A stretch of 64,000 bases of DNA from Mixta tenebrionis (GTDB lineage: Bacteria > Pseudomonadota > Gammaproteobacteria > Enterobacterales > Enterobacteriaceae), in assembly GCF_006517625.1 (NCBI RefSeq), contig NZ_VHQI01000004.1:328771-392770 (forward strand). The letters run 5' to 3'. Both the position numbers and the translations under genes were made by a program. Shown here piece by piece: positions 1 to 19,265 of this stretch. A model generated the notes under the pieces. The model saw only the letters and a program-made list of their open reading frames with translations. It was not told the origin of the DNA and ran no database searches. How positions within the stretch are numbered: the first letter of the stretch is position 1; every line of letters starts with the position of its first letter.

Positions 1-3000
1 AAATGCCCGCTCCGCCGCGTTAGTCATCGGTTCCTCAACGCGCTGCACATGGCACTGCGCCTGAAAATGGCCCTCGCCGTCAATTAGCAGATCGGCGCCG
101 CTCAGCCGCGCCCTCAGCGCCGGGTGCGCCTGGGTTAAGGCCGCCATTATCGAGTTCAGCCGCCTCAGGGTGAGCGTTGCTGGCGTATTAAGCCAGACGC
201 CATGCGCAAAGAGATGCTGCCCCTGCGCATGATACCAGCGCAGAATCGGCAGGCTGTCCACCACGCCGCTGCGCTGCGCGACCGGTGTCGGCACCGCATC
301 AAGCGACGCCATCAGTCGCGCCATCGCCGCCGGCGTTCTGCCGGCGAAAATCTCTTTTGGCCGCAGCTGCCAGCCCGCATGCCGCAGGCGATTGCCCAGC
401 GACATCGCGGAGATACTGTCGCCGCCGAGCACAAAGAAATCATCATCCGCGCCCACCGCCGCCAGCCCCAGCACCTGCGCCATCGCCTGACAAATCAGGC
501 GCTCCTGCGGCGTGCTCGCCTGACGGCCTGGCGGACGCGCTATTTCGCCCGGATCGGGCAGCGCCCGGCGGTCAACCTTACCGTTGACGGTAAGCGGCAG
601 CGCCTCCAGCACCATCAGCACCGTGGGCACCATATAGTCCGGCAGCCGCTGCGCCAGCGCGCTTTGCAGCTCGCTCGCCAGATTTGCGCGCCGGCGTAAC
701 TGCTCATCGGCCACCGCGCAGTAGCCCACCAGCCGCCAGCTGGCGCCCTGCGGCTGTGCAACCACCGCCGCGCCGCTGACCTGCGTCAGCGACGCCAGCG
801 CGCTCTCCACTTCGCCCAGCTCGACCCGGAAGCCGCGTATCTTGATCTGATCGTCCAGCCGGCCAATAAAGGCCAGCTGTCCATCTGCCCGCCAGCGCAG
901 CAGATCGCCGGTACGATACATTACCTCGCCGGTACGAAAGGGATTGGCGACAAAGCGGGCGGCGGTCAGTTCGGGCCGGCGCAGATAGCCGCGCGCGATA
1001 CCGGGGCCGGAGATATAAAGCTCTCCCGCCACGCCGATCGGCACCGGCTGTAGCCGCTCATCCAGCAGCCAGACATCGGTATTGGCGACCGGACGCCCGA
1101 TCGCCGGCTGGCTGACCTCGCTTACCGCCGCCCCCAGCGTATCGATAGCGTATTCAGAAGGGCCGTAATAGTTATGGAAAGCGATCTGCGGATGGGCGCG
1201 CATTATTTCCCACAGGCGCGGCGTGGCCGCCTCGCCGCCAATCATCAGCAGCTGCGGCGCCGGCTGTCCCGGCTCCAGCAGCCCGGCATCGATCATCTGC
1301 AACAGGAAAGAGGGCGTCACGTCCATAATATCCACCGGCGTGTGGCGCATCTGCTGCACCACCGCCCAGGCGTCGCGCCGCGTCTCCTCATCGAAAATCA
1401 GCAGCTCGGCGCCCATCAGCATGCAGAACAGCGGCTCCCAGGAGGAGTCGAAAGAGAAGGAGGCGGTATGACCGGCGCAGATACGACGCGGCTGCATGGC
1501 GTTAAAGGCGACGATGGCCGGCCCGAACAGCTGCGCGGCGTGGGAAGTCAGCAAATTCAGCAGCCCTTGATGGCTATTCATCACCCCTTTGGGTTTGCCG
1601 GTAGAGCCGGAGGTGTAAATAATGTAGGCGAGGTGTTCGCCCTGCAACGGCTCGCGTCGCTCAGCATCGGTAATCCAGCCGCAGGCGTGACGCGCCAGCA
1701 GCGATTGCATATCGGGCGCATCCAGCTCGCAGAGCGGCAAATGCGTCGGCAGGCGCGCCACGGCGTCGCTTACCGTGAGGATCAGCGCCGGACGGGCATC
1801 ATCGCACATCAGCGCCAGCCGCTCCGGCGGATAATCGAGATCCAGCGGCAGACAGGCGGCGCCGCTGGCAAGCACGCCAAAGATCGCCACCACGCTAAGC
1901 TCGCTGCGCGGCAGCGCGATAGCCACCGCATCCTCCGCGCCGATACCGCGCGCTATCAGTTCGCGCGCCAGCCGCATGCTGTTATCGTGCAGCTGCCGCC
2001 AGCTCAGGCGCTGCTGACCGCTGATAACCGCAACCTGATGCGCATCTTGCGTCACGCGGCGCGCCAGCCAGTCAAGTAGCGAGGTCTGTTGCGCCTGCGG
2101 CGCAATACGCGCGCCTGTCGACCATACGGCGATCCGTTGCGCTTCCCCGGCCATCATCAACGTGCAGTCGCCCACCGCTTTTTGCGGCGCGGCAAACAGC
2201 TGTTGTAACAGATGCGTTATCCGCCCGGCATGCTGGCGCAGCGTTTCCGCGCTGTAGCGCCGCGGACTGGCGATCAATCGTAGCTGTAGCGCATCCTGAT
2301 GTTGCGCAATTTCAATTTCCAGATCGTCCACCGGCCCCATCGCCAGCGGGTGCGTAATCGCCGGCTGCCCATCGATGCAGAGTTCCTCATGATAGAGCTT
2401 ATAATTGAGCACCGGGCCATAAAGCGCGCCCTCGCCGCTGACCAGCTGCAAATCGCGTCGTAGCTGCTCCGCCTCATAGCGCTGATGGCGGCGCACCGTT
2501 TTCAGCTCCTGCGCCAGCGCCGCGGCGGCTTCGTTTAGCGAAGTGTGGGCGCTGACCTCCAGCTGTAGCGGCAGCACGTTCACTACCGGGCCCAGCGCGG
2601 TCAGCGCCTGCGATCCCATGCGACGCATAAACGGAAAGCCGATGCTCAGGCGCGGTTCGCCGCTCATGCGGCTAAAGTAGAGGCAGATGCCGGCCATCAG
2701 CAGCTCAACCGCCTCGCGTCCGACGGTACGCGCGGCCCCCGCCATATCGATGCCTGACAGCGAACAGCTTTGCTGCAGCGGCAGCGCGCTATCCGCCGCG
2801 TTCATCTCTTCAGCCAGCGCCAGGCTTAGCGGTGCAGGCAGCTGCGCGGCATGCGCGCGCCAAAACTCGCGGCTTTGCTGCCACGCGGGGCTGGTTTGCA
2901 GCGTCGCATATTCTGCCGCGACGGCCGCAAAGGAGGTAAAGGGCGACGGCGGCGGCGGTTCGCCACGGCGCAGCGCCTGATAAACGGTAACGATCCAGCG

Positions 3001-3504
3001 GGTTAGCGCGGTAAAGCTAAAGCCATCCAGCTGCAAATGATGAAAACGCTGATACCAGAACCAGCGCGCAGTCTTCCCCGCCGCTACGCGCATCAGCGCC
3101 TGACGCCACAGCGGCGCGCCGCCGCTAAGCGACGGCGGACGAACGATATCGGCGCGCATCCACGCCAGCGCGCGCGCTTCGCCATCCGCGTCATCGGTAA
3201 AATCAAGCAGCTGCGGGGCGGGCACGTCATCGACAGTAACGTGACGGCGCAGATACTGCTGCGGCTCGCCTGCGGCGTTTTCGCCAAAGCGCGCGTGAAC
3301 CATATCGGCAGCGGCCAGCCCGTGGCTGATCGCCTCGGCAAACAGCGCGCAGTCCGGCTCGCCGTAAAATTCCACATAGTGGGCGACGTTAAAGGCGCCG
3401 GCGCTCGCGGCCAGCTGCTCCGCCATCCAGATACCCGGCTGCGCCGCCACCAGCGGCAGCGTCAGCAGAGAAGAAGAATATGAATGTTGCTGGTTTTCGG
3501 TCAT
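1..3504 (-). CDS. Siderophore NRPS, N-terminal part (C-A-PCP-E...), CbsF/VabF-like
   Basis: Reading frame stays open for 1168 codons to the window edge, so the C-terminus is missing. Domains seen: condensation (about 10-440, HHxxxDG motif at 154-160), adenylation (about 465-975, YTSGSTGKPKG at 630-640, YRTGDL at 863-868, NGK with Lys976), carrier protein (about 985-1065, GGDSI at 1027-1031), then a domain starting near 1080 with LPILRWY, which resembles the epimerization-domain motif PIQxWF. The N-terminus (LPLVAAQPGIWMAEQLA) is strongly EntF-like. However, EntF ends C-A-PCP-TE with GGHSL, so this is a longer enzyme. Reading the pocket against GrsA gives D,S,E,D,M,G,Y,I,D,K; the acidic residues suggest a basic amino acid (inference). 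It probably condenses DHB with a D-configured residue. It lies 26 nt after mbtH in the same operon. The domain after PCP could instead be a second condensation domain. Confidence 0.85.
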   Translation of the reverse strand, partial: MTENQQHSYSSSLLTLPLVAAQPGIWMAEQLAASAGAFNVAHYVEFYGEPDCALFAEAISHGLAAADMVHARFGENAAGEPQQYLRRHVTVDDVPAPQLLDFTDDADGEARALAWMRADIVRPPSLSGGAPLWRQALMRVAAGKTARWFWYQRFHHLQLDGFSFTALTRWIVTVYQALRRGEPPPPSPFTSFAAVAAEYATLQTSPAWQQSREFWRAHAAQLPAPLSLALAEEMNAADSALPLQQSCSLSGIDMAGAARTVGREAVELLMAGICLYFSRMSGEPRLSIGFPFMRRMGSQALTALGPVVNVLPLQLEVSAHTSLNEAAAALAQELKTVRRHQRYEAEQLRRDLQLVSGEGALYGPVLNYKLYHEELCIDGQPAITHPLAMGPVDDLEIEIAQHQDALQLRLIASPRRYSAETLRQHAGRITHLLQQLFAAPQKAVGDCTLMMAGEAQRIAVWSTGARIAPQAQQTSLLDWLARRVTQDAHQVAVISGQQRLSWRQLHDNSMRLARELIARGIGAEDAVAIALPRSELSVVAIFGVLASGAACLPLDLDYPPERLALMCDDARPALILTVSDAVARLPTHLPLCELDAPDMQSLLARHACGWITDAERREPLQGEHLAYIIYTSGSTGKPKGVMNSHQGLLNLLTSHAAQLFGPAIVAFNAMQPRRICAGHTASFSFDSSWEPLFCMLMGAELLIFDEETRRDAWAVVQQMRHTPVDIMDVTPSFLLQMIDAGLLEPGQPAPQLLMIGGEAATPRLWEIMRAHPQIAFHNYYGPSEYAIDTLGAAVSEVSQPAIGRPVANTDVWLLDERLQPVPIGVAGELYISGPGIARGYLRRPELTAARFVANPFRTGEVMYRTGDLLRWRADGQLAFIGRLDDQIKIRGFRVELGEVESALASLTQVSGAAVVAQPQGASWRLVGYCAVADEQLRRRANLASELQSALAQRLPDYMVPTVLMVLEALPLTVNGKVDRRALPDPGEIARPPGRQASTPQERLICQAMAQVLGLAAVGADDDFFVLGGDSISAMSLGNRLRHAGWQLRPKEIFAGRTPAAMARLMASLDAVPTPVAQRSGVVDSLPILRWYHAQGQHLFAHGVWLNTPATLTLRRLNSIMAALTQAHPALRARLSGADLLIDGEGHFQAQCHVQRVEEPMTNAAERAF

Positions 3505-3530
3505 CAGTCGTTCCTTCGCGGGTGTTGCCG

Positions 3531-3749
3531 TTAATGTGTGCTGCGTTGCAGACTCGCCGGACGCATCTCCTGCCATTCGCGCTCCACGTAGGCAAGGCAG
3601 CTGGCGCGTTTTTCCGGGCCGAATTCAACCTGCCAGCCGGCCGGAATAGCGGCAAATTCAGGCCAGAGGCTGTATTGCCGCCGGGCGTTAATCAGGACAT
3701 AAAACGCGCTGGTTTCGTCATCGAAGGGATTGGTATGTTGCTGGCTCAT
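3531..3749 (-). CDS. ybdZ: MbtH-like NRPS accessory protein
   Basis: 72-residue protein with the family signature: NPFDDE near the N-terminus, then SLWPEF, IPAGW and a closing W-x-x-M-R-P. MbtH-like proteins bind NRPS adenylation domains and are needed for their solubility or activity. It lies between the Fes-like hydrolase (9 nt upstream) and the NRPS (26 nt downstream), as ybdZ lies between fes and entF in E. coli. It should be co-transcribed with both under iron control. Length and all hallmark residues are normal. Confidence 0.95.
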   Translation of the reverse strand: MSQQHTNPFDDETSAFYVLINARRQYSLWPEFAAIPAGWQVEFGPEKRASCLAYVEREWQEMRPASLQRSTH

Positions 3750-3758
3750 CGCTTTTCC

Positions 3759-5054
3759 TTATGGCAGTGGTGAAAGGGAGGGTTCAGCCGCGTCGGCGCC
3801 GAGCAGCCAGCGCACGCCGTCGATTAAGCCGCCGCGCCAGCAGATCGCATCGTGACCGCCCTGATAGACGCGATGGTTCACCTGATGGCCGGCGGCGGTC
3901 AGCGCCTGATACATTTGCTGGTTAACGAAGTGGATATCCGGTTCGCGCAGCCCGGCCTGCTGAAAAATCCGCAGCGGCCCGGCGCCGGAGCGCAGGGCGA
4001 CCTGCTGCGTCAGAAAGCCCGGTTCATGGCTCTCCCGTTCGGCGAAGTGGGTCATAAAACGCATATTCGGCCACCAGAACGAGCCGGACTGGGTCAGCAC
4101 GCAGCCGAAGCGCTGCGGCCAGAAAAGCGCGGCGTAGAGCGCGGCAAGGCCGCCGTAGCTCTGGCCGGCCACCAGCGTACGGGCCGGGTCTTCGGTGAAG
4201 GCGGCGCGCTGTCGCGCCAGCGGCAGCAGCTCCTCCTGCAGCGCCAGCCAGAAATCGGCGTTGCAGGTCAGTTCACGCGAGCGGACTTCGTTATCCACGG
4301 CGTCAATCATCAGCCACGCCGCCGCAGGCAGCGCGCCCAGCCGGGTTTGCGCCTCCAGCACCGGCAGCAGCGAGAGCGTTTCCACCCATTTTTGCCCGTC
4401 GAGCAGGACGATCAGCGGCATATCCTCGCCCCCGTCCGGCTGCCAGAGCCAGACGCGCCGCCGGTTATTCAGGCGCAGGCTGCGCCATTCGAAGGCGCTA
4501 ACCGCGGCGGGCGGAGAGGCGATACCCGCATCCACCTCACGCCAGGCCTGCTGATCGGGCGCCTGTGGCAGATGAACGGCGGAAAGCACTCCGTCAAGCG
4601 GCATATGGGGATTAAGCGGATCGGCAATAGCGCAGGGAAACAGCGAACACCACCACTCACGCTGCTGCTGACGCTGTTGCTCCGCATCGCCCTGCGGCGG
4701 CGGCGGCAGCTGCGCGGCGGTGACCGGGATCAGACTGTAGCTGCCGCGCCAGTCCGGCTCCACCTCTACCCTACCGCTCCAGATAGCGGTGCCGGGCAGG
4801 CGCTGCAGGCTCTGCGGCGTAAAGCTGTGATGATCCGTCACGCCGTTAATATCCAGATAAACCCGCTGAAAGGCGGAGGCGGCTTCATTGCCTGCGGGGT
4901 CGCGCCAGAAAAAGATCAATGTCAGCCGCTCACTATCCGGCTGCCGCTCCACCAGCGGCGTGCCTGCCGCGGCGATTTTTAGCCACCATGCGTCGCTGTC
5001 GGCATCCGCGGCCGCCAGCCAGCCGCCGGTTGTTCCGGCCGGTTGTATCTCCAT
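3759..5054 (-). CDS. fes: Fes/CbsH-like ferric siderophore esterase or peptidase
   Basis: 431 residues from the ATG at 5054, chosen because GGAGG lies 6 nt upstream; the frame stays open to 5111 without a comparable site. This is the alpha/beta-hydrolase family of enterobactin esterase, which releases iron in the cytoplasm by cleaving the imported ferric siderophore. GQSYGG carries the nucleophilic Ser, and GGHDAICW near the C-terminus carries the catalytic His. The N-terminal half is the usual Fes beta-sandwich region. First gene of the leftward arm, divergent from the receptor gene with a Fur-box candidate between. If the product is chrysobactin-like rather than a trilactone, the closest functional analogue would be CbsH of Dickeya. 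Confidence 0.88.
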   Translation of the reverse strand: MEIQPAGTTGGWLAAADADSDAWWLKIAAAGTPLVERQPDSERLTLIFFWRDPAGNEAASAFQRVYLDINGVTDHHSFTPQSLQRLPGTAIWSGRVEVEPDWRGSYSLIPVTAAQLPPPPQGDAEQQRQQQREWWCSLFPCAIADPLNPHMPLDGVLSAVHLPQAPDQQAWREVDAGIASPPAAVSAFEWRSLRLNNRRRVWLWQPDGGEDMPLIVLLDGQKWVETLSLLPVLEAQTRLGALPAAAWLMIDAVDNEVRSRELTCNADFWLALQEELLPLARQRAAFTEDPARTLVAGQSYGGLAALYAALFWPQRFGCVLTQSGSFWWPNMRFMTHFAERESHEPGFLTQQVALRSGAGPLRIFQQAGLREPDIHFVNQQMYQALTAAGHQVNHRVYQGGHDAICWRGGLIDGVRWLLGADAAEPSLSPLP

Positions 5055-5137
5055 CCTTTCCTCCCTTTTTCCGTTTCCCCCGCCCGCCATGCCCGCTGCG
5101 TGACGTGACACAAACTTACTAAAACTTAAATAAAAAT

Positions 5138-5156
5138 GATATTGATAACAATTTTC
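5138..5156. promoter_or_regulatory. Candidate Fur box between the divergent siderophore arms
   Basis: GATATTGATAACAATTTTC matches the 19-bp Fur consensus GATAATGATAATCATTATC at 15 of 19 positions. It lies in the 263-bp gap between the fes-like gene and the TonB receptor, where Fur sites control both directions in related siderophore loci. It would shut both arms down when iron is plentiful. Assignment is by eye. Confidence 0.6.
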
Positions 5157-5317
5157 GTTTGCAATACGCTTGTGGACGTTTTGTTCAGCTATGCCTTCTG
5201 GCGTCTGGTAAAACCTGCCGTTACACCATGCTGTGACGGGTCACCATCGCCCCGGCAATAGTTAATAACCTCTTATTCATTTTATTTTTTCATTAACGGA
5301 CAATTAGCCAGGGAGTC

Positions 5318-7507
5318 ATGATGAGAAACAACCACGAAAGCGCCTTTCCTCCTGCTCCGCCGCGCCCCGGCAACGCGCTGCTCGCCGCCTCGCTGAGCCT
5401 AACGCTGCCCGCCTTCGCCGCCGATGCGCCGCAAGAGACATTGGTGGTAACCGCGGGCGCCGTTGAACCTCCCGCCGCGCCGCTGCAGGGCATAGTGGCG
5501 AAAAGCAGCGCCGCCGGAACCAAAACCGCCGTGCCGCTGGTGAAAACGCCGCAAACTATCTCGGTGGTTACCCGCGATCAGATGGATGCCCAGGGCATTA
5601 CCTCCGTTGCCGATGCGCTTAATTACACCAGCGGCGCCTTCACCAACTATCGCGGCTCCTCTAACCGCAATGATGAGGTGGTGACGCGCGGTTTCCGCTA
5701 CGCGCCTAAATTTCTCGACGGTCTGAGCTACGGCCTCAGCGGCCAGGGCAACGCAACGGGACAAATCGATCCCTGGCTGCTGGAGCGCGTCGAACTGGTG
5801 CAGGGTCCGGCCTCGGTGCTCTATGGCCAGGTTAATCCGGGCGGGCTGATCGCCATGACCAGCAAGCGCCCCACCGCGCTGCCCATCCATAAGCTACAGA
5901 TACGCGGCGGCAATCAGCATCTGGGCGAGGCGGCCTTCGATTTCGGCGGCGTGCTGAACGATGACAGCAGCCTGCTTTATCGCCTGAACGGCATCGCCAG
6001 CACGCAGCATCAGTTCGTGAAGGATTACAAACAGCAGCGCGTGGCGATCGCCCCGGCGTTGACCTGGCTGCCGAACGGCGCGACCAGCTTTACCCTGCTG
6101 ACCAGCTATCAAAACGATCCTAAAGCGGGCTATCGCAACTTCCTGCCCCAGATCGGCACCGTCACGCCAACCGATAAAGGGCAATACATTCCTTACGATC
6201 TCAACGTCAGCGATCCGGGCTATAACCAGGCGAAGCGCGAGCAGGTTTCGGTAGGCTATCTGTTCGATCACAGCATCAACGACAGCCTGACGCTGGTACA
6301 AAACCTGCGCTACTCCACTATTGAGAGCAAAGACAAATATCTGGTTTACACCTGGAGCAACCCGGAAATTTCACAGACCAGCATCTCGCGGCGCGCCCAG
6401 CGTGAAAAAAGCCAAACCGATGAACTGGCGATCGATACCCGCCTCAACGCCGCTTTCGCAACCGCCGCGATTTCCCACACGCTGATCGGCGGGTTTGACT
6501 ATAAATGGAGCAAGCACGCCTCTGAGCTGTGGCGCGTGGGGGGAGATAGATACAACCTCGACTGGGCCAGCCCGGTTTACGGCGTGCCGGTTGATGAAAG
6601 CCAGATGCGGAAATCGATCGATACGCATAAAAAGCTCGATCAGGCAGGGGTTTATTTGCAGGATCAGCTGGCGTGGCGCAGCTGGAATCTGCTGCTTTCC
6701 GGGCGCCAGGACTGGAGCGAAGTGCGCACCAACGATCGCGCCGACGCTGCTACCGCGCAGCAAAACGACAGCCAGTTTACCGGGCGCGCCGCGCTGCTCT
6801 ACGCCTTTGATATCGGCCTGTCGCCCTATGTTAGCTACAGCACCTCATTCGAGCCGAACCTTGAGCGCGGCGCGCCGGGAACCGCGCCGTTCAGCCCTAC
6901 CACCGGCAGGCAAACCGAAGCAGGGCTGAAATTCCAGCCGCCGGGCAGCGATCTCATGCTGAGCCTAGCGCTGTTTGATATCACGCAGAAAAATATCACC
7001 TCCTACAACAGCGTTATCGGCTACAACGAGCAGATCGGCAGGGTGCGCTCAAAAGGGTTTGAAACCGAGCTGCACGCCCAGCCCACGCCCGCCATCAGCC
7101 TGATCGCCAGCTACACCTTTACCGATTCGTCCATCAAACAGAGCAACAACGCGGCGGAACAGGGCAAAACCCCGGCGGCGCTTCCCCAACATATGGCCGC
7201 GCTCTGGGGAAGCTATCGCTTTCTGCAGGGTCCGCTGTCCAGCCTGACGCTGGGCGCCGGCGTTCGTTATACCGGCGCCAGCTACGGCGATAACAGCGAC
7301 AGTTTCCGCGTTCCGGCCCGAACGCTGTATGACCTGATGGCGCGCTACGACCTTGCGGAAATCAGCGCGCCGCTGAAAGGGGCCGCTTTGCAGTTCAACG
7401 TCAGCAACCTGACGGATAAACATTATGTCGCCTCCTGTAGCGGCAGCGCAGCCTGCTTCTACGGCTCTGGCCGCAGCATGTTCGCTACGCTCAGCTACAG
7501 CTGGTAA
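5318..7507 (+). CDS. TonB-dependent ferric siderophore receptor (FhuA/FoxA/Fct family)
   Basis: 729 residues. A signal peptide ends near PAFAA; a TonB box (ETLVV) follows, then a plug domain with [13 protein letters not shown] and the [10 protein letters not shown] motif, then a long beta-barrel ending in an aromatic residue (SYSW) as outer-membrane barrels do. The C-terminal [10 protein letters not shown] cysteine pair is typical of the FhuA/FoxA/FpvA/Fct group and is not a FepA feature. Two adjacent ATGs (5318, 5321) share the AGGGAG ribosome site; the first is used here. Only 114 nt separate it from entC, and no terminator is evident, so receptor-entCEBA is probably one operon as fct-cbsCEBA is in Dickeya. 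Predicted role: uptake of the siderophore made by this locus. Confidence 0.9.
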
Positions 7508-7621
7508 TACCGGGCCGTCTGGCACCGCCTTTCCGGGCCGTTAACGGCAAGGCGGATTCGCTCTCCTGAAGAGGGAGGCGGGCAGCGGCGCGCCAATCAA
7601 ACCAACAAGAGGGATTTTATT

Positions 7622-8803
7622 TTGTCTGGTATCGCCAATGCGCCACGTATAACGCTGCGCCAACCCCTTCATCCTGAAGATACGCTGTTCCTTTCGCCCC
7701 ATAAAAGCCTGCTGGCCCGCGGGCGGATCGCCTCCCTGACCGAACCCGCCGGGGATGGTCACCTCGCCAGCAGCACGTTTCAGCTGCGCCTGCAGCAGCT
7801 CTTTGAGCAGGCCCGCCACGCCGGAGTAGAGAATCCCATCGTTGTCGGCGCGATTCCCTTCGATAAAAGCCAGCCCAGCGCGCTGTACGCCCCGGCGGAA
7901 TATCACTGGCTCGATCGCACGGCGATAGCCGCCGCGCCGGCGGCGGCGCAAACGCTGGCGCAGGGCGCCCGCCGCCTCCAGCCCGACCACGATGAGTTTT
8001 GCCGGATGGTCAGCGCCGCGCTGCGTCAGCTTAAGCGCGACGAACTGCAAAAAGTGGTGCTGTCGCGCCTGCTGCATATCGAACTGCCGCAGCCGCAGAG
8101 CGCCCTGCGCCTGTGGCAGCGGCTGAATCGCCAGAATCCGGCCAGCTACAACTTTCATCTGCCGCTGGCGGATGGCGTGTTAATCGGCGCCAGCCCGGAG
8201 CTGCTGCTGCGCAAACGGGGCGAGCGGATTGACTCCATGCCGCTGGCCGGCTCGGCACGCCGCTCCGCCGATGCGGCGCAGGATATGCGGCTGCGCGCGG
8301 CGCTGCTCGCTTCGCGTAAAGATCGGCATGAGCATCAGATTGTGGCCGACGCTATCCGGCGACAGCTGGCGGAACGCTGTCGCTCCCTGACGCTGCCGGA
8401 ACCGGAACTTATCAGCACGCCGACGCTCTGGCACCTGGCGACGCGGGTACAGGGTTGCGTGCGGCATCCGCAGGAAAACGCCCTGTCGCTGGCCTGCCTG
8501 CTGCATCCTACCCCGGCGCTGTGCGGCGCGCCCTGCCGGCACGCCCACGCGCTGATTCAGCGGCTGGAGCCGTTCCGGCGCGGCTGGTTTGGCGGCATTG
8601 TCGGCTGGTGCAATGCGCAGGGCGACGGCGAATGGGTGGTGACCATACGCTGCGGTCATATTCAGCCGCAGCGCATTACGCTGTTCGCCGGCGCCGGCAT
8701 CGTGCCCGATTCGCAGCCGGAAAACGAATGGTACGAAACCGGCGTTAAGCTCGGCACCATGCTGCAGGCGCTTGGCTGCGCGCAGCTCCAGGAGGCCTCA
8801 TGA
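7622..8803 (+). CDS. entC: Isochorismate synthase EntC (siderophore branch)
   Basis: 393 residues. Converts chorismate to isochorismate, the first step to 2,3-dihydroxybenzoate. Chorismate-binding family hallmarks are present: [50 protein letters not shown] and [10 protein letters not shown]. The only sensible start is the TTG at 7622, with AAGAGGGA 7 nt upstream; no in-frame ATG lies near the conserved N-terminus. Its last 4 nt overlap entE (ATGA), indicating translational coupling. It is distinct from the menaquinone enzyme MenF at 19332-20681. Confidence 0.95.
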
Positions 8804-10422
8804 TCGTCTTTAATCGCTGGCCGCCGGCGCTGGCCCGCCGCTATCGCGAAAAAGGCTACTGGATCGACCTGCCGCTGACCGATATTCTCACCCGCCATGC
8901 CGGACGGAGCGAAACAGCCATCCTCTGTAACGAACAAGCCTTAAGCTACCGACAGCTGAACGACGCCGCGCTGCGGCTGGCGGCGGCGCTGGCGCGGCGC
9001 GGCGTGCGGCGCGGCCAAACCGCGCTGGTGCAGCTGGGCAACGAGGCGGAATTTTACATCGTCTTTTTCGCCCTGCTGCATCTCGGCGTGGCGCCGGTCA
9101 ATGCGCTGTTCAGCCATCAGCGCAGCGAGCTGGTCGCCTACGCCGATCAGATCGCCCCTGCGCTGCTGATTGCCGATCGACGTCATCGCCTTTTCGCCGA
9201 CGACGGCTTTATCGAGGCGCTCAGGGCGCGCTGCCCCACGCTGCAAACCGTGCTGCTGCATCAGGCCGCCCCGGCGGATCGGCTGGATCTCAGTCAGCTG
9301 TTGCAGGAAGAGGCGGGCGATTTCACGCCGACGCCGACGCCCGCCGATGAGGTCGCGTTTTTCCAGCTCTCCGGCGGCAGCACCGGCACCCCCAAGCTGA
9401 TCCCGCGCACCCACAACGACTATTACTACAGCGTTCGCGCCAGTAATCCGCTGTGCGGCGTCAGCGCCCACACCCGCTCTCTCTGCGCGCTGCCCGCGGC
9501 GCACAACTATCCGCTGAGCTCTCCCGGCGCGCTGGGCGTTTTTTACGCCGGCGGCATGGTGGCGCTGGCGCCCGATCCCAGCCCGGACAGCTGCTTCCCG
9601 CTGATCTCGCGCCATCGGCTTAACCATGTCGCACTGGTGCCGCCCGCCGTCAGCGTCTGGCTGGAGGCGGTGCGGCTGGCGGGCAATGCCGAAGCGCTGA
9701 GCAGTCTGACGCTGCTGCAGGTCGGCGGCGCGCGCATTGAACCGTCGCTGGCGCGCCGCATTCCCGCCGAGCTGGGCTGCCAGCTGCAGCAGGTTTTCGG
9801 CATGGCGGAAGGGCTGGTGAACTACACCCGCCTGGACGATGACGATCTGCACCGCTTTACTACCCAGGGCAAACCGATCAGCGAGGATGACGAGGTGTGG
9901 GTCGCCGACGCCGACGGCAACCCGCTGCCCGCCGGCAAGCCGGGACTGCTGATGACGCGCGGCCCCTACACCTTTCGCGGCTACTACCGCAGCCCGCAGC
10001 ATAACCGCGCCGTGTTTAACAATGACGGCTTTTACTGCTCCGGCGACGTGGTGATCCAGCTCGCCGACGGCTATTTGCAGGTGGTGGGCCGGGAGAAGGA
10101 TCAGATCAATCGCGGCGGAGAAAAAGTGGCGGCGGAGGAAATTGAGCATCTGCTGCTGCGCCATCCGGCTGTGCTGCACGCCGCGCTGGTGGCGGCCCCT
10201 GACGCAATGATGGGCGAGAAAAGCTGCGCCTTTATCGTCAGCCGTGAGGCGGTGAAAGCGGTGACGCTGCGACGCTACCTGCGCGATCTGGGCATCGCCG
10301 ACTATAAGCTGCCGGATCGTTTCATTTTTCTCTCTACGCTGCCGCTGACGCCGGTGGGCAAAATCAATAAACAACGGCTGCGGGCGCTGGCCGCCGCTGC
10401 CGGTGAAGGAGGTTTATCATGA
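8800..10422 (+). CDS. entE: 2,3-dihydroxybenzoate-AMP ligase EntE
   Basis: 540 residues, the usual length. Stand-alone aryl-acid adenylation enzyme that activates DHB with ATP and loads it on the aryl carrier domain of EntB. The ATP-binding motif [13 protein letters not shown] lies near residue 195, YCSGD with the downstream [12 protein letters not shown] hinge is in the C-terminal part, and the catalytic Lys is in TPVGKINK near the end. Overlaps entC at the start and entB at the end by 4 nt each, the same coupling as in E. coli entCEBA. Confidence 0.95.
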
Positions 10423-11297
10423 CGATTCCCCAGCTAAAAGATTATCCGCTGCCTGCCGCGCTGCCGGAAAACAGAGTGCGCTGGCAGCTTGAGCCGCAGC
10501 GCTGCGCGCTGCTTATCCACGATATGCAGGACTATTTCCTGAATTTCTGGCATCGCGAAAGCGCGATGATCGGTCAGGTTATCGCAAATCTGGCCGCGCT
10601 GCGCCAGCGCTGCCATCAGCTGAATATTCCGGTGTTTTATACCGCCCAGCCCGGTAAACAGAGCGACAAAGAGCGGGCGCTGCTGAATGATATCTGGGGG
10701 CCTGGCCTTAACCGTTCGCCGGAACAGCAGCGGATCGTTTCGGCTCTCTCCCCCGCTCCGCAGGATTGCGTGCTGGTGAAGTGGCGCTACAGCGCCTTTC
10801 AGCGTAGCGACCTGGAAGCGCGGCTTCACGCCCTGCAACGCGACCAGCTGCTGATCGGCGGCATCTACGCCCATATCGGCTGCCTGACCACCGCTACCGA
10901 CGCCTTTATGCGTGATATCCAGCCGTTTATGGTGGCGGACGCGCTGGCGGATTTTAGCCGACAGGAGCATGAGATGGCGCTGCGCTATACCGCCGGACGT
11001 TCAGGTCGGGTGCTGACTACCGCCTGCGCGCTCGATGAGCTGCCCGCCCCGCAGCCGGGCTGGCATCGGGAAGCTTTGCTGGCGCTGCTGGCGCCGATGC
11101 TGGATGAGGATACGCAACAGCTGGCCGACGACGACAACCTGCTCGACTATGGTCTGGATTCGGTACGTATCATGTCGCTGGCTTCGCGCTGGCGTAAAGA
11201 GGGACATGAGCTGGACTTTGTGGCGCTGGTAAAACAGCCGACGCTGGCGGCCTGGCTGGCGCTGCTGAACGGCGGGAGGCAACATGATGCCGTTTAG
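10419..11297 (+). CDS. entB: Isochorismatase / aryl carrier protein EntB
   Basis: 292 residues in two domains. Residues 1-about 205 are isochorismatase ([32 protein letters not shown]), making 2,3-dihydro-DHB and pyruvate. Residues about 215-290 form an aryl carrier protein with DYGLDSVR, whose Ser takes the phosphopantetheine arm. The loaded DHB is delivered to the condensation domain of the NRPS at 1-3504. The arm must be attached by a phosphopantetheinyl transferase (EntD type), which is not in this window. Overlaps entA by 14 nt. Confidence 0.95.
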
Positions 11298-12033
11298 CGG
11301 GCAAACCGTCTGGGTAACCGGCGCCGGCAGCGGCATCGGCGAGCAGGTCGCGATGCGCTTTGTTGAGGCGGGCGCGAAGGTGATCGGTTTCGATCTCGCC
11401 TTTCCGCGCCGTAATCCGCCTTTTACTGCCGTAACGCTGGATCTCAGCGATCCCGCCGCCGTCAGGGAGGTGTGCGCGCCTCTGCTGGCGGCGGGCGATC
11501 TGGATGTGCTGGTGAACGGCGCAGGCATTCTGCGGCTGGGGGCGCTGGAAACCATTAGCTGGGACAGGTGGCAGCAGTCGCTGAACGTTAACGCCGGGGC
11601 GGCCTTTAATCTGTTTCAGCTGACCATTCCCCATTTTCAGCGGCGGCGCCGGGGAAATATCGTCTCGATTGTTTCGAACGCCGCCCACGCGCCGCGCGTC
11701 AATATGGCGGTTTACTGCGCCTCAAAAGCGGCGATGCGCAGTCTCTGCCTGAGCGCCGGACTGGAGTTAGCGCCCTGGGGCATTCGCTGCAATCTGGTTT
11801 CCCCCGGCTCCACGCTGACGCCGATGCTGGAGAAGATGCTGGGCGACGATCCCGCGGCGCGCCAGCGCCTGATTGAAGGGCTGCCGGCGCAGTTTAAGCT
11901 GGGCATTCCGCTGGGCAAAATCGCTCTGCCGGATGAGATCGCCAGCTGCGTGCTTTTTCTCGCCTCCGACGCGGCCAGCCATATTACGCTGCAGGATATA
12001 GTGATTGACGGCGGCGCCACGCTGGGCGCCTGA
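11284..12033 (+). CDS. entA: 2,3-dihydro-2,3-dihydroxybenzoate dehydrogenase EntA
   Basis: 249 residues, a classical short-chain dehydrogenase. TGAGSGIG near the N-terminus binds NAD, and the YCASKAA motif near residue 144 supplies the catalytic Tyr and Lys. It oxidises 2,3-dihydro-DHB to DHB. Last gene of the rightward arm; a bidirectional terminator follows within 20 nt, and the next gene (yfaY) points the other way. In E. coli a thioesterase gene (entH) follows entA; it is absent here. Confidence 0.94.
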   Translation: MMPFSGQTVWVTGAGSGIGEQVAMRFVEAGAKVIGFDLAFPRRNPPFTAVTLDLSDPAAVREVCAPLLAAGDLDVLVNGAGILRLGALETISWDRWQQSLNVNAGAAFNLFQLTIPHFQRRRRGNIVSIVSNAAHAPRVNMAVYCASKAAMRSLCLSAGLELAPWGIRCNLVSPGSTLTPMLEKMLGDDPAARQRLIEGLPAQFKLGIPLGKIALPDEIASCVLFLASDAASHITLQDIVIDGGATLGA

Positions 12034-12049
12034 CGGCGCAGCGCGGACG

Positions 12050-12083
12050 AAAAAAGACCGGGCCTGGTCCGCCCGCTCTTTTT
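12050..12083. terminator. Bidirectional terminator between entA and yfaY
   Basis: An A-run at 12050-12055, a stem AGACCGGGC / GCCCGCTCT with one mismatch, and a T-run at 12079-12083. Placed between two convergent genes, it can end transcripts from both sides. Confidence 0.75.
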
Positions 12084-12114
12084 CACTGCGACGGTTGCGC
12101 CAGGCAGACGCCGC

Positions 12115-13311
12115 TTACGCTTTCAGCGTTTCCACAATATCAACCCAGCCGTGACCGGTGCTGACTTCCATACCGTGCAGCCAGCGGCGCAGCATATTCA
12201 TCGCCATCATCGCTACCAGCTGCTGGCGCGTTTCCAGCGTGTGGCGCTGATTGTTGAACTTCACGCGCTGCGCAAACAGACCATCCGGCGTAGAGAGCGC
12301 AAAGCCGAGCTGCTCATCCTGTAGCGAACCGACGCAGAGCGCCAGCGGCGCCTGCTGCGCGGCGGCCCGCTGCTGCGCCTGCTGCGCCAGCGCCTGCAGC
12401 GTCTCTTTGCCGGCGGGCAGCACTTCGCCTGCCCGCATCGGCACCTGCGCCGAGGCCAGCTGCCACTGCAATAGCCCGGCGCTGAAACGTTCGCTGACGG
12501 TCAGGCTTAGCTGACGCTGGTTAAGCTGACGCGCCAGCTGCGCGGGCAGCCCTTCCGTGCCTTCAAACAGCGTACATTCCGCCAGCTGTAAGCGCACCTG
12601 CTGCCAGGCCTGTTCCATTGCCGTCCGCTGCGCGGCCGGACCGGTCAGCTTGATCTCAATAATCGGCATCGAGGAGCGGTAGCCCATCACCGCGCCTTCC
12701 GGCAGCGGCAGCGGCTCCAGCTCCGCCGCCAGATCGCTCTCGCCGCGCCCGAAGGTGGTTAAGCGCAGGCAGATCGGCGGCTCCGTCAGCGCATAGCGCG
12801 CCTTAAGGCGCGGCAGAATCTGCTGTTCCACCATTACCTTAAATTCCGACGGCACGCCGGGAGTGAAGAAAATCCAGCAGTCGTTAAGGGTGACGGCGAA
12901 GCCGCAGGCGGTGCCAACCGGATTATCAATCAGCTCGCTGCCCGCCGGGATTTCCGCCTGCTTACGGTTGCTGGGCGCCATGGGGCGCCCGCGGCTGGCG
13001 AAAAACGCTTCGATCTTTTCCAGCCACGCCGGCTGTAGTTCCAGTTCCACGCCACAGGCGGTAGCCGCCGCCAGCGCGCTGAGATCGTCGCTGGTCGGTC
13101 CCAGCCCGCCGTTAACAATCAGCACGTCGGCAATCTGGCTACGCTCGGTTAACGTCTCCACCAGCGAACTCAGGCTGTCGCCGACGGTGGCGCGGCTGCT
13201 CATCGGCAGCCCGTGCTGAAACAGCATATCCGCCAGCCAGGCCGCATTGGTATCGATAATCTGACCGTGCAGCACTTCATCGCCCGTCGAGAGCATTTCC
13301 ACTCTAATCAC
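12115..13311 (-). CDS. yfaY: CinA-like protein YfaY
   Basis: 398 residues from a GTG start at 13311, selected because GGAGGA lies just upstream and the protein then begins VIRVEMLSTGDEVLHGQ, matching E. coli YfaY; the open frame extends further back without support. MoCF/CinA-type N-terminal domain with NGGLGPTSDD and TPGVPSEF motifs. The C-terminal part corresponds to the CinA amidase region but, as in YfaY, is divergent, so the amidase activity of PncC should not be assumed. Biological role is not established. Sits beyond menE as in E. coli. Confidence 0.9.
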   Translation of the reverse strand: MIRVEMLSTGDEVLHGQIIDTNAAWLADMLFQHGLPMSSRATVGDSLSSLVETLTERSQIADVLIVNGGLGPTSDDLSALAAATACGVELELQPAWLEKIEAFFASRGRPMAPSNRKQAEIPAGSELIDNPVGTACGFAVTLNDCWIFFTPGVPSEFKVMVEQQILPRLKARYALTEPPICLRLTTFGRGESDLAAELEPLPLPEGAVMGYRSSMPIIEIKLTGPAAQRTAMEQAWQQVRLQLAECTLFEGTEGLPAQLARQLNQRQLSLTVSERFSAGLLQWQLASAQVPMRAGEVLPAGKETLQALAQQAQQRAAAQQAPLALCVGSLQDEQLGFALSTPDGLFAQRVKFNNQRHTLETRQQLVAMMAMNMLRRWLHGMEVSTGHGWVDIVETLKA

Positions 13312-13632
13312 TTCACATCCTCCTGTGGTTGATGCTTTTACTGTAGAAAGGCGCGCAGGCGAATACAACGTAAATCTCCCGGCGGCGCACAGTTTCAGAG
13401 ATAGCGGCCCTCTCCCGGCGCTGCGCTTCTCTCCCGTCGCCGCTGAGCGCGGCGGCGCCGATGCCGAACGCAATATTTGCGGCTTCGGCAGCCATAGCTA
13501 CAGTTTTATCTGCCACCGACAGGAGCGTTTCCGGGGAAAATGCCAGCGGCGTTGACAGCGGGGCGCCGCTAACCTGATGAATGATGAGGCGGCGCTGCTG
13601 CGGGCGGGGGCGCAGCGCCCCAGTAAGATTAA
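13312..13632. other. Intergenic region between menE and yfaY
   Basis: 321 bp with no convincing gene. It begins after the menE stop with a GC-rich inverted repeat (GGGGCGCTGCGCCCC on the minus strand, near 13607-13621) that lacks a T-run, and should contain the yfaY promoter. Nothing else was recognised. Confidence 0.4.
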
Positions 13633-14994
13633 TTAACCGGACTGCGCCCGCAGCCACTGCGCCAGCCGCTGACGCGACAGCTTAATGCCGCCTTCGTTGA
13701 GATGCTCCGGCAGCGGCAGCCAGCGTGCCGGCCGCTGAAAACTCGCCAGCCGCGACTGCGCCCAGTCGGCTACGTTTGTCAGCTGCCAGCCGGCCTCCAG
13801 CGCCAGCAGCGCTACCGGCCTGGCGCCCCACTCTTCATCCTGCTGCGGCAGCACAAAGGCCTGATTGACGGCAGGATGCTGTAGCAGCAGACTTTCGATG
13901 CTCTCCGGCTGTACCGCTTCGCCGCCGCTGAAAAACAGATTATCCACTCTGCCCAGCACCTGAAGTTCGCCCCGATGCCAGCGGCCACGATCGCGGGTAT
14001 GAAACCAGCCCTGCGCGTCGGTCAGCGGCTGAGGCCGCCCTTCCCGCCAGTAGCCGCAGGCGAGCGTCGCGCCGCGAATCCAGATCTCCTCATCGACGAT
14101 GCGTACCTCGCGCCCGGCCAGCGGTAAACCGACGCCGGGCTGACCATCGGCGCGTTTGGCGCACACCGTCGCCGCGCTCTCCGTCAGGCCGTAGCCGCAC
14201 CAGCAGCGAATGCCCGCCGCCTCGGCGCGCGCCACCAGCTCCGGCGGAATCGCCGCCCCGCCCAGCAGCACCGCCTTGAGCCCGACGGGCGGCTGCGGCA
14301 GCTGCAACAGCCGCCACAGCTGGGTCGGCACCAGCGAAGCAAAGCCACAGCCCGCCAGCGCCTGCGCCAGCGGCGTCTTTGCATCCGGGATCGCCAGGCC
14401 GCCGCCGGCCAGCAGCCAGCGCCAGACAATGCCCTGGCCGGAAACGTGACAGAGCGGCAGCGACAGCAGCCAGCGCTCGTCGGCGCTAAAATTCATTAGC
14501 TGATTGACGCCCGCCGCGCTGGCGAACAGCGCCCGGTAATCGTGCGCCGCCGCCTTCGGCAACCCGCTGGAGCCGGAGGTCAGCGTCAGCGTAGCGATAG
14601 CATCAGGCCGCCAGCGGCGGCGCGGCGGCAAAGCAGCGCTTCGCAGCGCCAGCTGAGCGGGGCTTTCCGCCAGCGCATCGGCCAGGTTAAGCATAAAATC
14701 GGGGCGCAGCGTTGACAGCAGCGGCTGCAGCGTGGCGGGCGGCAGCTGCGGATTGAGCGGCAATACCGCGGCGCCCGCCTGCATCAACGCCAGCCAGGCA
14801 AGCAGCAGAGAGAGGCTGTTTTTACCGCGCAGCGCCACCAGCATATCGGCCTGCACGCCCTGCTGCTGAAAGCCGGCGCAGAGGGCGTCCAGCCGCTGCG
14901 CCAGCGCGCGCCAGCTCAGCGTCTCCGCCGGGGTAAGGATCGCCACGGCGTCGGGCCTCATCTGCGCCAGCCGGCGCCACGGAAAATCGTGCAT
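13633..14994 (-). CDS. menE: o-succinylbenzoate-CoA ligase MenE
   Basis: 453 residues from the ATG at 14994, which overlaps the menC stop (TGATG) and gives MHDFPWRRL, aligning with the E. coli start MIFSDWPWRHW; an in-frame ATG 18 nt upstream lies inside menC and is less likely. ANL-family acyl-CoA ligase: LTSGSSGLPKAA near residue 140, GYGLTE, RDRG and the C-terminal GGIKLSRQ catalytic Lys region. Attaches CoA to o-succinylbenzoate in menaquinone synthesis. Last gene of the men operon. Confidence 0.95.
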   Translation of the reverse strand: MHDFPWRRLAQMRPDAVAILTPAETLSWRALAQRLDALCAGFQQQGVQADMLVALRGKNSLSLLLAWLALMQAGAAVLPLNPQLPPATLQPLLSTLRPDFMLNLADALAESPAQLALRSAALPPRRRWRPDAIATLTLTSGSSGLPKAAAHDYRALFASAAGVNQLMNFSADERWLLSLPLCHVSGQGIVWRWLLAGGGLAIPDAKTPLAQALAGCGFASLVPTQLWRLLQLPQPPVGLKAVLLGGAAIPPELVARAEAAGIRCWCGYGLTESAATVCAKRADGQPGVGLPLAGREVRIVDEEIWIRGATLACGYWREGRPQPLTDAQGWFHTRDRGRWHRGELQVLGRVDNLFFSGGEAVQPESIESLLLQHPAVNQAFVLPQQDEEWGARPVALLALEAGWQLTNVADWAQSRLASFQRPARWLPLPEHLNEGGIKLSRQRLAQWLRAQSG

Positions 14995-15956
14995 CAGCAA
15001 ATCCGCGTCCACTGCCCCTGCTCCTGTAACGGTAGTTCACAGCCGGGCCAGCGCCGCACCAGCTGCTGACGCATCAGCGACAGCGTATCCAGCCCCGGCG
15101 TAGCGTGCGGCGTCAGCCAGCGGGCAAGGCGCGCCAGCTGCGTCAGGCCGAGGCTCGATTCCAGCGCCGAGCTGATCACCACCTGCAATCCCAGCCGCTG
15201 CGCGCCGGCAACGATGTGCCGCAGCCGCGCAATGCCGCCGCTCAGCGTCGGCTTAATCACCACCGCCACGACGCCCGGCTGGGCGCTAAGCTGAAAATCG
15301 GGCTGACGCAGGCTTTCATCCCAGGCGATGGCGATGCCGCTTTCGGCGGCGAAACGCAGGCTCTCTTCCGGCGTGCGGCAGGGTTCTTCAATGAAAGCGA
15401 TGCGCGCGCGCTGCGCCGGCGTCAGGCGATCGGCAAAACGCCGCGCTTTTTCTAACGTCCAGCTGCGGTTGGCGTCCAGCCGCAGCGGCAGCGTCGGCAA
15501 CGCCTCCAGCAACAGCGCTACCTGAATGGCGTCGCGCGCCGTTTCATACAGCCCAACCTTCATTTTGGCGCACGGCGGCCTCTGCGCCGCCAGCTGCAGC
15601 AGCAGTTCGTCCGGATCGCCCTGACAGAGCTGCGCGCTCTGCCAGCTCGCCGCCTCCGGCAATTCGCCGCGCAGTTCGGCGCAGGCGCAGCTCAGGCCAA
15701 AAGCCACCGACGGCAGATGGCTCTCCGCAACCGGTCTGGCAGCGCGCCAGTCGGCCAGCCAGGCGACTCCGGCCTGCTGCGCCTGCGTCAGGGTTTCGTG
15801 ACTAAAGCCCGGCAGCGGCGCGATTTCGCCCCAGCCCTGTCGTTCGCCTTCCTGCAGCTGCACCAGCAGGCCTTCTCGCTGCGTCAGGCGCCTGTCGCGC
15901 AGCACCACGCCGCTTTCCATCGGGACGGCATAGCGCCACAGCTTCGCCTGACGCAT
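14994..15956 (-). CDS. menC: o-succinylbenzoate synthase MenC
   Basis: 320 residues of the enolase superfamily. Catalytic features visible: KMKVG (Lys pair), [13 protein letters not shown] and AWDES (metal ligands), and [10 protein letters not shown]. Dehydrates SHCHC to o-succinylbenzoate. Its ATG overlaps the menB stop by 1 nt, so the two are translationally coupled. Confidence 0.96.
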
Positions 15957-16813
15957 CAGGGATTACGCCGGAACGGGCGGAAATCGGGCTGGCGCTTCTG
16001 ATTAAAGGCGTTGCGCCCCTCCTGCCCCTCTTCCGTCATATAGAACAGCATGGTGGCGTTGCCGGCCAGCTCCTGTAAACCCGCCTGACCGTCGCAGTCA
16101 GCGTTCAGCGCCGCCTTCAGACAGCGCAGCGCCATCGGGCTGTTGCACAGCATTTCGCGGCACCAGCGCACCGTTTCGGTTTCCAGCTGCGCCAGCGGCA
16201 CCACGGTATTTACCAGCCCCATCTCCAGCGCCTGCTGCGCATCATACATGCGGCACAGGAACCAGATTTCGCGCGCCTTTTTCTGGCCGACGATGCGCGC
16301 CATATAGGAAGCGCCCCAGCCGCCGTCAAAGGAGCCGACTTTCGGCCCGGTCTGACCAAAGCGCGCGTTATCCGCCGCGATGGTTAAGTCGCACAGCATA
16401 TGCAGCACGTGGCCGCCGCCCACCGCGTAGCCCGCCACCATCGCCACCACCGGTTTCGGGCAGTTGCGGATCTGGCGCTGAAAATCGAGCACGTTAAGAT
16501 GATGTACGCCGCCTTCATCCTGGTAGCCGCCGTAGTCGCCGCGCACTTTCTGATCGCCGCCGGCGCAGAACGCTTTATCGCCTTCGCCGGTGAGAATAAT
16601 TACGCCGATGCCTTCGTCATAGCGCGCGTCCTGCAACGCCATCATCATCTCCTGCACGGTCAGCGGGCGAAACGCATTGCGCACCTGCGGACGGTTGATG
16701 GTGATTTTGGCGATGCCCTCCGGCGATTTGTGGTAGCGGATATCGGTAAAGTCGCCGCTGCAGTCGCGCCATTCAACGGGTGCGGTAAGCTGTTGGTCGT
16801 CAGGATAAAGCAT
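15956..16813 (-). CDS. menB: 1,4-dihydroxy-2-naphthoyl-CoA synthase MenB
   Basis: 285 residues, the exact family length. Crotonase fold with [27 protein letters not shown] and [11 protein letters not shown], the MenB-specific active-site segments. Closes the second ring of the naphthoquinone. Lies 17 nt after menH and couples to menC. Confidence 0.97.
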
Positions 16814-16830
16814 TCAGGGTCTCCATAAAG

Positions 16831-17601
16831 TCAGGTAGGCTGGCGCAGCAGCTGCGCCAGACGATCGCTAAAGGCGGCGGGCGCGGCGCGATGAACGTTA
16901 TGTCCGGCGCCGGGAAGCGTATGCAGCGGCAGCTGCGCCTCTACCGCCAGCTGTAAAAATTTGCTGTCCCATTCGCCGCACAGGTAGCTGAACGGCACGC
17001 GCAGCCGGCGCAGCTCCGGCAGCAGATTGGGCTGATGACTAAGCGAGGTGGCGCTCAGCATCGCCGCCAGCGAGGGGCCGTGGCCGGCGCTGCGCTGCCT
17101 TACCAGCTCGCTGCGCTGCTGTTCGGTCAAATCCATAAACAGCGGCTGCCGGTACCAGGCTTCCAGCGTGGTTGTCAGCGGCAGATCGCGAAAGCGCTGA
17201 ACCCACTGCCGATCGCGCGCCAGCCGCAGCTGACGCTGGCGATGGTCGCACAGGCCGGGGTGTCCCGCTTCGACTACCAGTCCGCACAGGCCCGGTAGCG
17301 CCGCGCGACAGGCGTAGTGCATCGCCACGCGCCCGCCGAGCGAATAGCCGATAAGCCAGTAATGATCAATCTGATGATGGCGCAGCGTGGCGCTCAGCTG
17401 CGCGTTAAGCGCGTCGAAGCCGCTGACGCGCTGGCTGCGCGAGCCGCCGTGACCGGGCAGATCGATGCTCAGCATCGGCCAGTCGGGAAAAGCCTGCTGC
17501 ACCGGCAGCCACTCCTCAGCCGAGCCGAGAAAGCCGTGCAGCCAGACCAGCGTCGGCTTGCAGCTGCGGCGATGTCCCTGCCAGCGGGCGTGCAGAATCA
17601 T
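16831..17601 (-). CDS. menH: SHCHC synthase MenH
   Basis: 256 residues, alpha/beta hydrolase. [12 protein letters not shown] forms the oxyanion region, GYSLGG holds the Ser, and GAGHNVHR near the C-terminus holds the His. Eliminates pyruvate from SEPHCHC to give SHCHC. Overlaps the end of menD by 4 nt. Confidence 0.95.
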
Positions 17602-19265
17602 AGCTGCGCCCCCATAGTTACCAGCCGCGCAAAGACCTCGGCGCCGCTCTCCGGCGGCACGCTAAACTCCACCAGCGTCGTCCCCGTCCGGCTAAAGCCG
17701 TGCTGAACCGCCTCCTGCAGCGCGGCCCAGCTGGAGGCCAGCCGATAATCAAGACCGAACATCTGCGCCGCCGGAGCAAAGTTAACCGCCTGCGGCATGG
17801 TAAAAAACGCTTCGCGCCTGTCGGGCGGCGTCGGCAGCAGCGAGAAGATGCGTCCGCCGTTATTATTGACCACCACCAGCACCAGCGGCGCGGTAGTCTG
17901 TCGCAGCAGCGCCAGACTGTTGAGATCGTAAAGCGTCGAGATATCGCCCAGCAGCGCCAGCAGCGGCTGCGGACAGGCGCGCTGGATGCCGGCCAGCGTC
18001 GCAATCAACCCATCGATGCCGCTGGCGCCGCGGTTGCTGTAGACCGGATAGCCCGCCGGCAGCTGCGCCAGCGCATCCACCAGCCGCACCAGCAGGCTGT
18101 TGCCGAGAAACAGCTGCCCATGCGGCGGCAGCAGTTCCGCCAGCCGGTGCGCCATCTGCGCCTCGTCAACTTCAACCACCGCCGCGCCCGCCTGACGCTG
18201 CATACGAACGGCCAGCGTCTCCAGCTGCGGCGCCCAGGGCTGCTGCTTCAGCGCCGGATGCGCCCGCAGCCAGGCGCTGACGTCGCAGATAAATCGTCGT
18301 CCGGGCTGGTTCGCCGGATCGCGCCGTCCCGGCAGCGGATCGATGAGCCACCACTGCTGCGGACGCGCCCGCTGCTGCCACTGCAGCAGGCGTTTGCCGA
18401 TCGGGTTAGCGCCAAACTGCACGACCAGCTCCGCCTGGCCCAGCAGCTGCTGCGCCTGCGGGCTGTTCAGCCAGAGATCGGCGCAGGGCAGCGGCTGTCC
18501 GGTTTGCGCCTGCACATCCGCCAGCAGCGGCCATCCCTGCTCTGCCGCCCAGCGCGCCACTAATAGGCCCTGTCCGGCCGGCAAACGCCCGGCGACCGCC
18601 ACGCCGCGCTTTTTGCGCCATTCGGCCCAGTCAGGCTGCGGCGTCGCCGCGCTCGAAGCATGATGGCTGAGCCATGGACGCTGCTGCTGTTGCCATTCAT
18701 CCAGCGGCGCCAGCCAGTCGCGCCAGGCGTCATCTTCCGGGCCATAGAGCGGCTCGGCAAAAGGACAGTTAATATGCAGCGCGCCCGTCTGGGCGGCGGC
18801 GATCGCTTCGTCCAGCGTGGCGGCCAGCCAGCGCGCGTCGATTTCCGGCGTCGGACGCGGCAAATCGCAGCGGCGGGCGAAATGGGAAAATATTCCCGGC
18901 TGGATAATCGCCTGGTTGGCGCCGCAGTTAATCAGCTCCGGCGGACGATCGGCGCTCAGCACAATCAGCCGCTCGCCGGTAAGCTGCGCTTCAATCACCG
19001 CCGGCAGCAGGTTGGCGACCGCGGTGCCGGAGGTGACAATCAGCGCCACCGGCGCGTTTAACCCTTTCGCCATGCCGAGCGCAAAAAACCCCAGGCCGCG
19101 TTCGTCAAAATGGGTGTGACAGGTCAGAGCGGGCTGCCCGGCGGCGGCCAGCGTTAACGGCGCGGAGCGAGAGCCTGGCGCGATGCAAATATGGCGCACC
19201 TGGTGGCGCGTCAGCACGGTGATAATCAGCTCCGCCCAGCGGCGGTTGAAGCTACTGACGGACAT
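17598..19265 (-). CDS. menD: SEPHCHC synthase MenD
   Basis: 555 residues, thiamine-diphosphate enzyme (E. coli MenD 556). N-terminal APGSRSAPL, the TPP/Mg motif [12 protein letters not shown] and [12 protein letters not shown] near residue 440-460 are intact. Joins isochorismate with 2-oxoglutarate, the committed step that competes with EntB for isochorismate. A 66-nt gap separates it from menF. Confidence 0.96.

Follow-up and report, generated by a model that had tools for sequence, protein, structure and literature searches.

A predicted chrysobactin-type siderophore synthetase with an epimerization domain in Mixta tenebrionis

At the left end of a 64,000-nucleotide stretch of the Mixta tenebrionis genome (the window; G000:C34:328771-392770), the reverse strand encodes the beginning of a non-ribosomal peptide synthetase (NRPS), close to genes that match enterobactin-named models. 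The question raised by this locus is whether the synthetase is EntF or an enzyme that makes a different siderophore. The original prediction, that it is not EntF and contains an epimerization (E) domain, is supported by the analysis, although the system is of a kind already described: judged from its sequence, the enzyme is very probably a chrysobactin/trichrysobactin synthetase of the CbsF type. Statements on published systems follow excerpts of the papers cited.

Reading frame and domain order of the synthetase

The open reading frame (ORF) of the NRPS occupies positions 1-3576 of the window on the reverse strand and is open at the left edge. Flanking stretches of the contig were read to extend the frame, and no stop was encountered until G000:C34:323716, which gives a single ORF of 2876 codons. 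An ATG at position 3504, preceded by an AAGGA site, is a likelier start than the opening of the ORF at 3576, because the longer start overlaps the gene for an MbtH-like protein (3531-3749), the stop of which precedes the ATG at 3504. Read from this ATG, the NRPS comprises 2852 aa. The possibility of another NRPS outside this locus was considered and rejected, as the Condensation model matches at three places, all of them inside the NRPS gene.

The single protein has the domain order C-A-T-E-C-A-T-TE, in which the first carrier (T) domain has the motif GGDSI and the second GGHSL. Pfam recognizes three Condensation-type stretches, two AMP-binding domains, two PP-binding domains and one Thioesterase. 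The features are listed below, with residues numbered in the 2876-codon ORF and placed by motif position where no other evidence is given.

1..3504, reverse strand: first 1168 residues of the two-module NRPS, covering C-A-T and the beginning of E, from the ORF, the full frame and AAGGA before the ATG at 3504
Residue 179: first C motif, HHLQLDGFS
Residue 654: first A motif
412..426, reverse strand (residues 1051-1055): GGDSI carrier motif; its T domain is Pfam PP-binding 1027-1088
1..252, reverse strand: start of the E domain, from LPILRWY onward (LPILRWY at residues 1109-1115, window 232-252), from the motif, structure matches and tree
Residue 1226: start of the E motif HHLVTDGVSW, which falls some 100 bases beyond the left edge of the window
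Residue 1703: second C motif, HHLVVDGWS
Residue 2153: second A motif
Residue 2552: second T motif, LGGHSLL
Residue 2685: TE motif GYSLGG, in the sole TE domain (Pfam Thioesterase, residues 2616-2829)

A further GGHSL string at residue 1254, inside the E domain, occurs by chance. The GGDSI motif and the LPILRWY segment behind it lie where they had been described; counted from LPILRWY, 84 residues fall inside the window, where about 100 had been stated. At least a second module had been expected to the left of the window, and the continued frame does supply E, C, A, PCP and TE there, as identified by Pfam and motifs. Neither of the two outcomes that had been set beforehand as contradictory was found: no thioesterase comes after the first carrier domain, and an epimerization motif is present in the continued frame.

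Adenylation pockets and the predicted product

Relatives were collected as 36 loci, namely the congener L085 and 35 of at least 77 distinct loci (those with at least 43% identity; 42 at 31-36% were left out). The alignment contains the query and the 18 relatives among them that have GGDSI and more than 2000 aa. The other 18 loci comprise 16 EntF-sized proteins and two partial frames with GGHSL (L018 and L032), which were dropped from the EntF-sized count. Pocket residues were deduced at the ten usual positions, with the numbering checked against the 60% likeness stated for CbsF and TnbF in the excerpt of PMC3795760.

The deduced pocket of the first adenylation domain (A1), DSEDMGYIDK, recurs unchanged in 14 of the 16 aligned relatives that have an E domain, including Dickeya undicola (L008; 10/10 positions). 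It agrees at 9/10 positions with the Serratia bockelmannii relative (L011), in which I is replaced by V, and differs at three positions from that of Phyllobacterium (L012). Over the whole A1 domain, identity is 64.6% to the D. undicola relative and 63.5% to that of S. bockelmannii. The pocket of the second adenylation domain (A2), DVWHFSLVD, is the same as the serine pocket of EntF when the two are aligned. A1 thus appears to have a lysine-type pocket, for which lysine would be the substrate.

Pocket residues do not cleanly separate lysine, arginine and ornithine enzymes in this group, and an enzyme of the same type could instead load arginine or ornithine in module 1 and give a product like trivanchrobactin or turnerbactin with a D residue. 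We regard this as improbable. The pockets of the three kinds of enzyme are similar, and the turnerbactin synthetase TnbF is equally like CbsF and VabF, at 60% to both the lysine and the arginine enzyme, according to the excerpt of PMC3795760. Against this stand the agreement of the A1 pocket with those of D. undicola and S. bockelmannii and the corresponding domain identities. The module 1 code of TnbF, DSDDGGLVDK, agrees with the CbsF code at 60% (PMC3795760) and, in a comparison made with this published code, shares 6/10 positions with the A1 pocket, as expected for a CbsF-like pocket. As described in the same excerpt, TnbF resembles the Mixta enzyme in having two modules, the second with the serine code DVWHFSLVDK, and differs in using L-Orn and in having no E domain.

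Lysine therefore remains the favoured prediction for the substrate of module 1, and the predicted product is DHB-D-Lys-L-Ser (DHB, 2,3-dihydroxybenzoate), which probably leaves the enzyme in trimeric form as cyclic trichrysobactin. The prediction draws on the domain order, the kept motifs, the pocket identity with the Dickeya relative and the gene order, which are read from the sequence; lysine as the substrate, the D configuration, and a trimer in preference to a monomer, are inferences. Cyclic and linear release cannot be told apart in this way, since turnerbactin (PMC3795760) and frederiksenibactin (PMC8480324) are, in the excerpts, reported only as linear trimers.

The closest parallel is CbsF of the Dickeya cbs locus, seen here through D. 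undicola L008, which would be that locus judging from its genus and gene order. The L008 protein has the same C-A-T-E-C-A-T-TE arrangement with GGDSI and then GGHSL carriers, and identical deduced A1 and A2 pockets, but the two NRPSs are only about 56% identical over the protein. The E domain of CbsF turns L-Lys to D-Lys, chrysobactin is DHB-D-Lys-L-Ser, and Dickeya chrysanthemi EC16 makes cyclic trichrysobactin (excerpt of PMC8480324). The viobactin cluster of Chromobacterium violaceum is, by description, likewise a DHB siderophore cluster with an E-domain NRPS; its product was measured as cyclic trichrysobactin with D-Lys, as had been predicted from the E domain (excerpt of PMC13251462). The chemistry is thus published for Dickeya and Chromobacterium, and the Mixta system would be a further member.

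The epimerization domain

The E domain of the NRPS carries the motifs HHLVTDGVSW, ESHGR and FNYLG. Searched alone, the E region matches ten distinct PDB sequences (E ≤ 0.001), all of them from NRPSs. PvdL is the top match (3e-37), followed by bacitracin synthase 3, the tyrocidine synthases and gramicidin S synthase 1; we take the matched stretches to be E domains. A tree was built from the 55 condensation-type domains of 19 proteins. Its 17 E domains group in a single clade, separate from each of the two sets of C domains; the tree shows the separation of the three sets and does not bear on D-residue acceptance by the second C domain. These results, with a match to the model TIGR01720 as a fourth, bear out the E domain that had been expected after GGDSI, and it is apparently intact in module 1.

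An E domain that is present but inactive would leave L-Lys in the product, as in frederiksenibactin. FreF, the synthetase of Yersinia frederiksenii, has lysine and serine modules used with DHB and differs by its lack of an E domain and by an L-Lys product, as described in the excerpt of PMC8480324. The E region does change faster than the A domains: its identity is 86.4% to the congener, 41.8-52.6% to 14 others and 37.0% to Phyllobacterium L012, and it is the least conserved of the three domains compared (E, A1 and A2). In addition, the E region reaches 71.5 bits with the model TIGR01720, presumably for a segment commonly found with E domains, and so falls slightly short of the cut-off of 74.2. 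However, HHxxxDGVSW, ESHGR and NYLG are all kept both here and in the congener L085, and the frame is open, so that loss of activity seems highly unlikely and an active E domain is the preferred reading.

The original prediction had taken GGDSI as the usual signature of a carrier that precedes an E domain. An E domain does follow it here and in 16 of the 18 aligned GGDSI relatives, but L021 and L023 carry GGDSI without one, so that the motif by itself is no proof of epimerization and was rejected as a sufficient sign. That this type of synthetase can occur without an E domain is also seen in turnerbactin (excerpt of PMC3795760). L021 and L023, from Duganella and Pseudoduganella, have two modules and the related but different A1 pocket DSLDLGLVDK; enzymes of this type are expected, from their domains, to give a product with an L-amino acid.

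The siderophore cluster and its distribution

Genes for DHB biosynthesis and a receptor adjoin the NRPS. The window contains the following.

3531..3749, reverse strand: MbtH-like protein, 72 aa (Pfam MbtH, 89.9 bits; the sole MbtH match in the genome)
3759..5111, reverse strand: enterochelin-esterase-like protein, Fes (NCBIfam PRK10439, 524.8 bits, cut-off 222)
5318..7507, forward strand: TonB-dependent siderophore receptor (67% identity with its positional counterpart in the D. undicola cluster)
7622..8803, forward strand: isochorismate synthase, EntC/DhbC-like (TIGR00543, 301 bits, cut-off 224.75)
8800..10422, forward strand: 2,3-dihydroxybenzoate-AMP ligase, EntE-like (PRK10946, 916.9 bits, cut-off 783)
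10419..11297, forward strand: isochorismatase with aryl carrier domain, EntB-like (Isochorismatase and PP-binding)
11284..12033, forward strand: 2,3-dihydro-2,3-DHB dehydrogenase, EntA-like (PRK08220, 357.5 bits, cut-off 312)

MbtH-like proteins are partners of NRPS adenylation domains. By its position, the receptor is presumably Fct. The product of 7622..8803 reaches 437 of the 624 bits of the EntC equivalog model. Left of the window follow an EntS-like exporter, a PPTase and a FepB-like gene, with the PPTase between entS and fepB.

In the proposed pathway, EntC, EntB and EntA would produce DHB, which EntE would load on the aryl carrier of EntB. The first C domain would join DHB to lysine on the GGDSI carrier, where the E domain would convert the lysine to its D form, and the second C domain would transfer DHB-D-Lys onto the L-serine bound to the GGHSL carrier. 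Release would be the task of the TE, most likely with three DHB-D-Lys-L-Ser units linked as a trilactone of the kind found in cyclic trichrysobactin. The EntS-like exporter, the Fct-like receptor, the FepB-like binding protein and the Fes-like esterase would serve to export the siderophore, take it up again and free its iron.

No gene for an ABC permease or ATPase was identified in the island, which has the FepB-like protein, the receptor and the esterase. Four of the seven FecCD matches in the genome were scanned (L101, L102 and both C72 permeases), and none reaches the cut-offs of PRK10441 or PRK10440, which we take to be FepD and FepG, in a scan that reported matches at E ≤ 1e-20; the model that L101 matches identifies it as BtuC. 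The other three FecCD matches are a pair on C12, in a single frame of 730 aa that is FhuB-like in size, and a weak one on C23. From these results there is some, rather small, chance that the ferric siderophore enters through a resident transporter of a different name, or without a dedicated inner-membrane importer.

The enterobactin-named neighbours (EntS, FepB and Fes) and the EntF-like module 2, which shares the serine pocket and the C-A-T-TE order of EntF and scores 608 bits against its A domain, are what an ordinary EntF with a diverged carrier motif could call upon, but the chance of this is negligible: EntF has one module and no E domain, the continued frame of 2876 codons encodes two modules and an E domain, the score with the NCBIfam EntF model is 1848 bits and thus below the curated cut-off of 2400, and all 16 EntF-sized relatives (1297-1383 aa) have GGHSL followed by the TE motif. 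The CbsF-type reading is therefore retained. Two earlier expectations are not borne out by these comparisons. The first 1070 residues had been called EntF-like, whereas the EntF model fits best on module 2 (residues 1567-2843), and the solved EntF gives 608 bits with the second A domain against 280 with the first. Automatic annotation had been expected to name the protein enterobactin synthase, but at this score NCBIfam would not call it EntF; a homologue encoded by a plasmid of Serratia grimesii bears only the annotation 'non-ribosomal peptide synthetase'. A possible mislabel is corrected, in that the synthetase lies near matches to enterobactin-named models yet its expected product is a cationic triscatecholate with D-lysine. 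Ferric enterobactin and the iron complex of cyclic trichrysobactin are opposite in handedness (excerpt of PMC8480324).

The gene order A, B, E, C, receptor, Fes, NRPS, EntS is found whole in five of the 12 relative loci compared: D. undicola L008, Enterobacteriaceae bacterium B14 (L015), Lonsdalea (L025), Prodigiosinella (L022) and Xenorhabdus (L007). It was not seen whole in the other seven within the available stretches: L009, L011 and L030 have the receptor, Fes and EntS without close DHB genes, L012 has another gene order, L021 and L023 give no receptor match, and the stretch of L085 is too short to tell. D. undicola L008 shares the order of the DHB genes, receptor, fes and entS with Mixta. 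Unlike the Mixta cluster, it has, by reading, two apparent ABC permeases and an ATPase between the NRPS and entS, and of these two clusters it is that of Mixta which has a PPTase gene between entS and fepB. The locus L015 (9854-16594) has the highest overall identity outside the genus among the matches listed (59%). Its NRPS frame breaks off within the second A domain, and the match continues past the break, which indicates a broken gene or a sequencing error.

Two of the eight genomes of the genus, G000 (the present one) and G005, contain the NRPS, the G005 copy being 89% identical. Between nrdB and a cinA-like gene lie about 20.5 kb in both of these genomes, 305-325 bases in five of the other six and 1.4 kb in the sixth, G002. 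The siderophore cluster thus forms an island of about 20 kb (G000:C34:320647-340887), the right part of which is window 1-12117. A ferredoxin-like gene (86 aa, ending at C34:320646, by reading), presumably yfaE, follows nrdB in G000 and also in the empty sites of G003 and G006, so that the island proper starts after it. Gain by transfer and repeated loss both fit the presence and absence at this site. The result adds a genus that varies in whether it has this siderophore cluster at one chromosomal site.

A search of 198 genomes drawn from the family, for which residues 1107-1347 from the start of the E domain served as the query, gave a match (E ≤ 0.001) in 19. Eleven of these, the present genome included, score above 120 bits and the rest at most 61 bits, so that most of the drawn genomes would be without this enzyme. 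A related NRPS is encoded at 10735-19236 of the S. grimesii plasmid (L108; NZ_MT039164.1), which is typed as conjugative, together with mbtH, fes, a receptor, fepB and entS; no DHB genes are among the genes listed for a stretch of 25.9 kb, in a gene table that is incomplete. In a plasmid search with residues 450-1105, the best of the matches listed is 62% identical.
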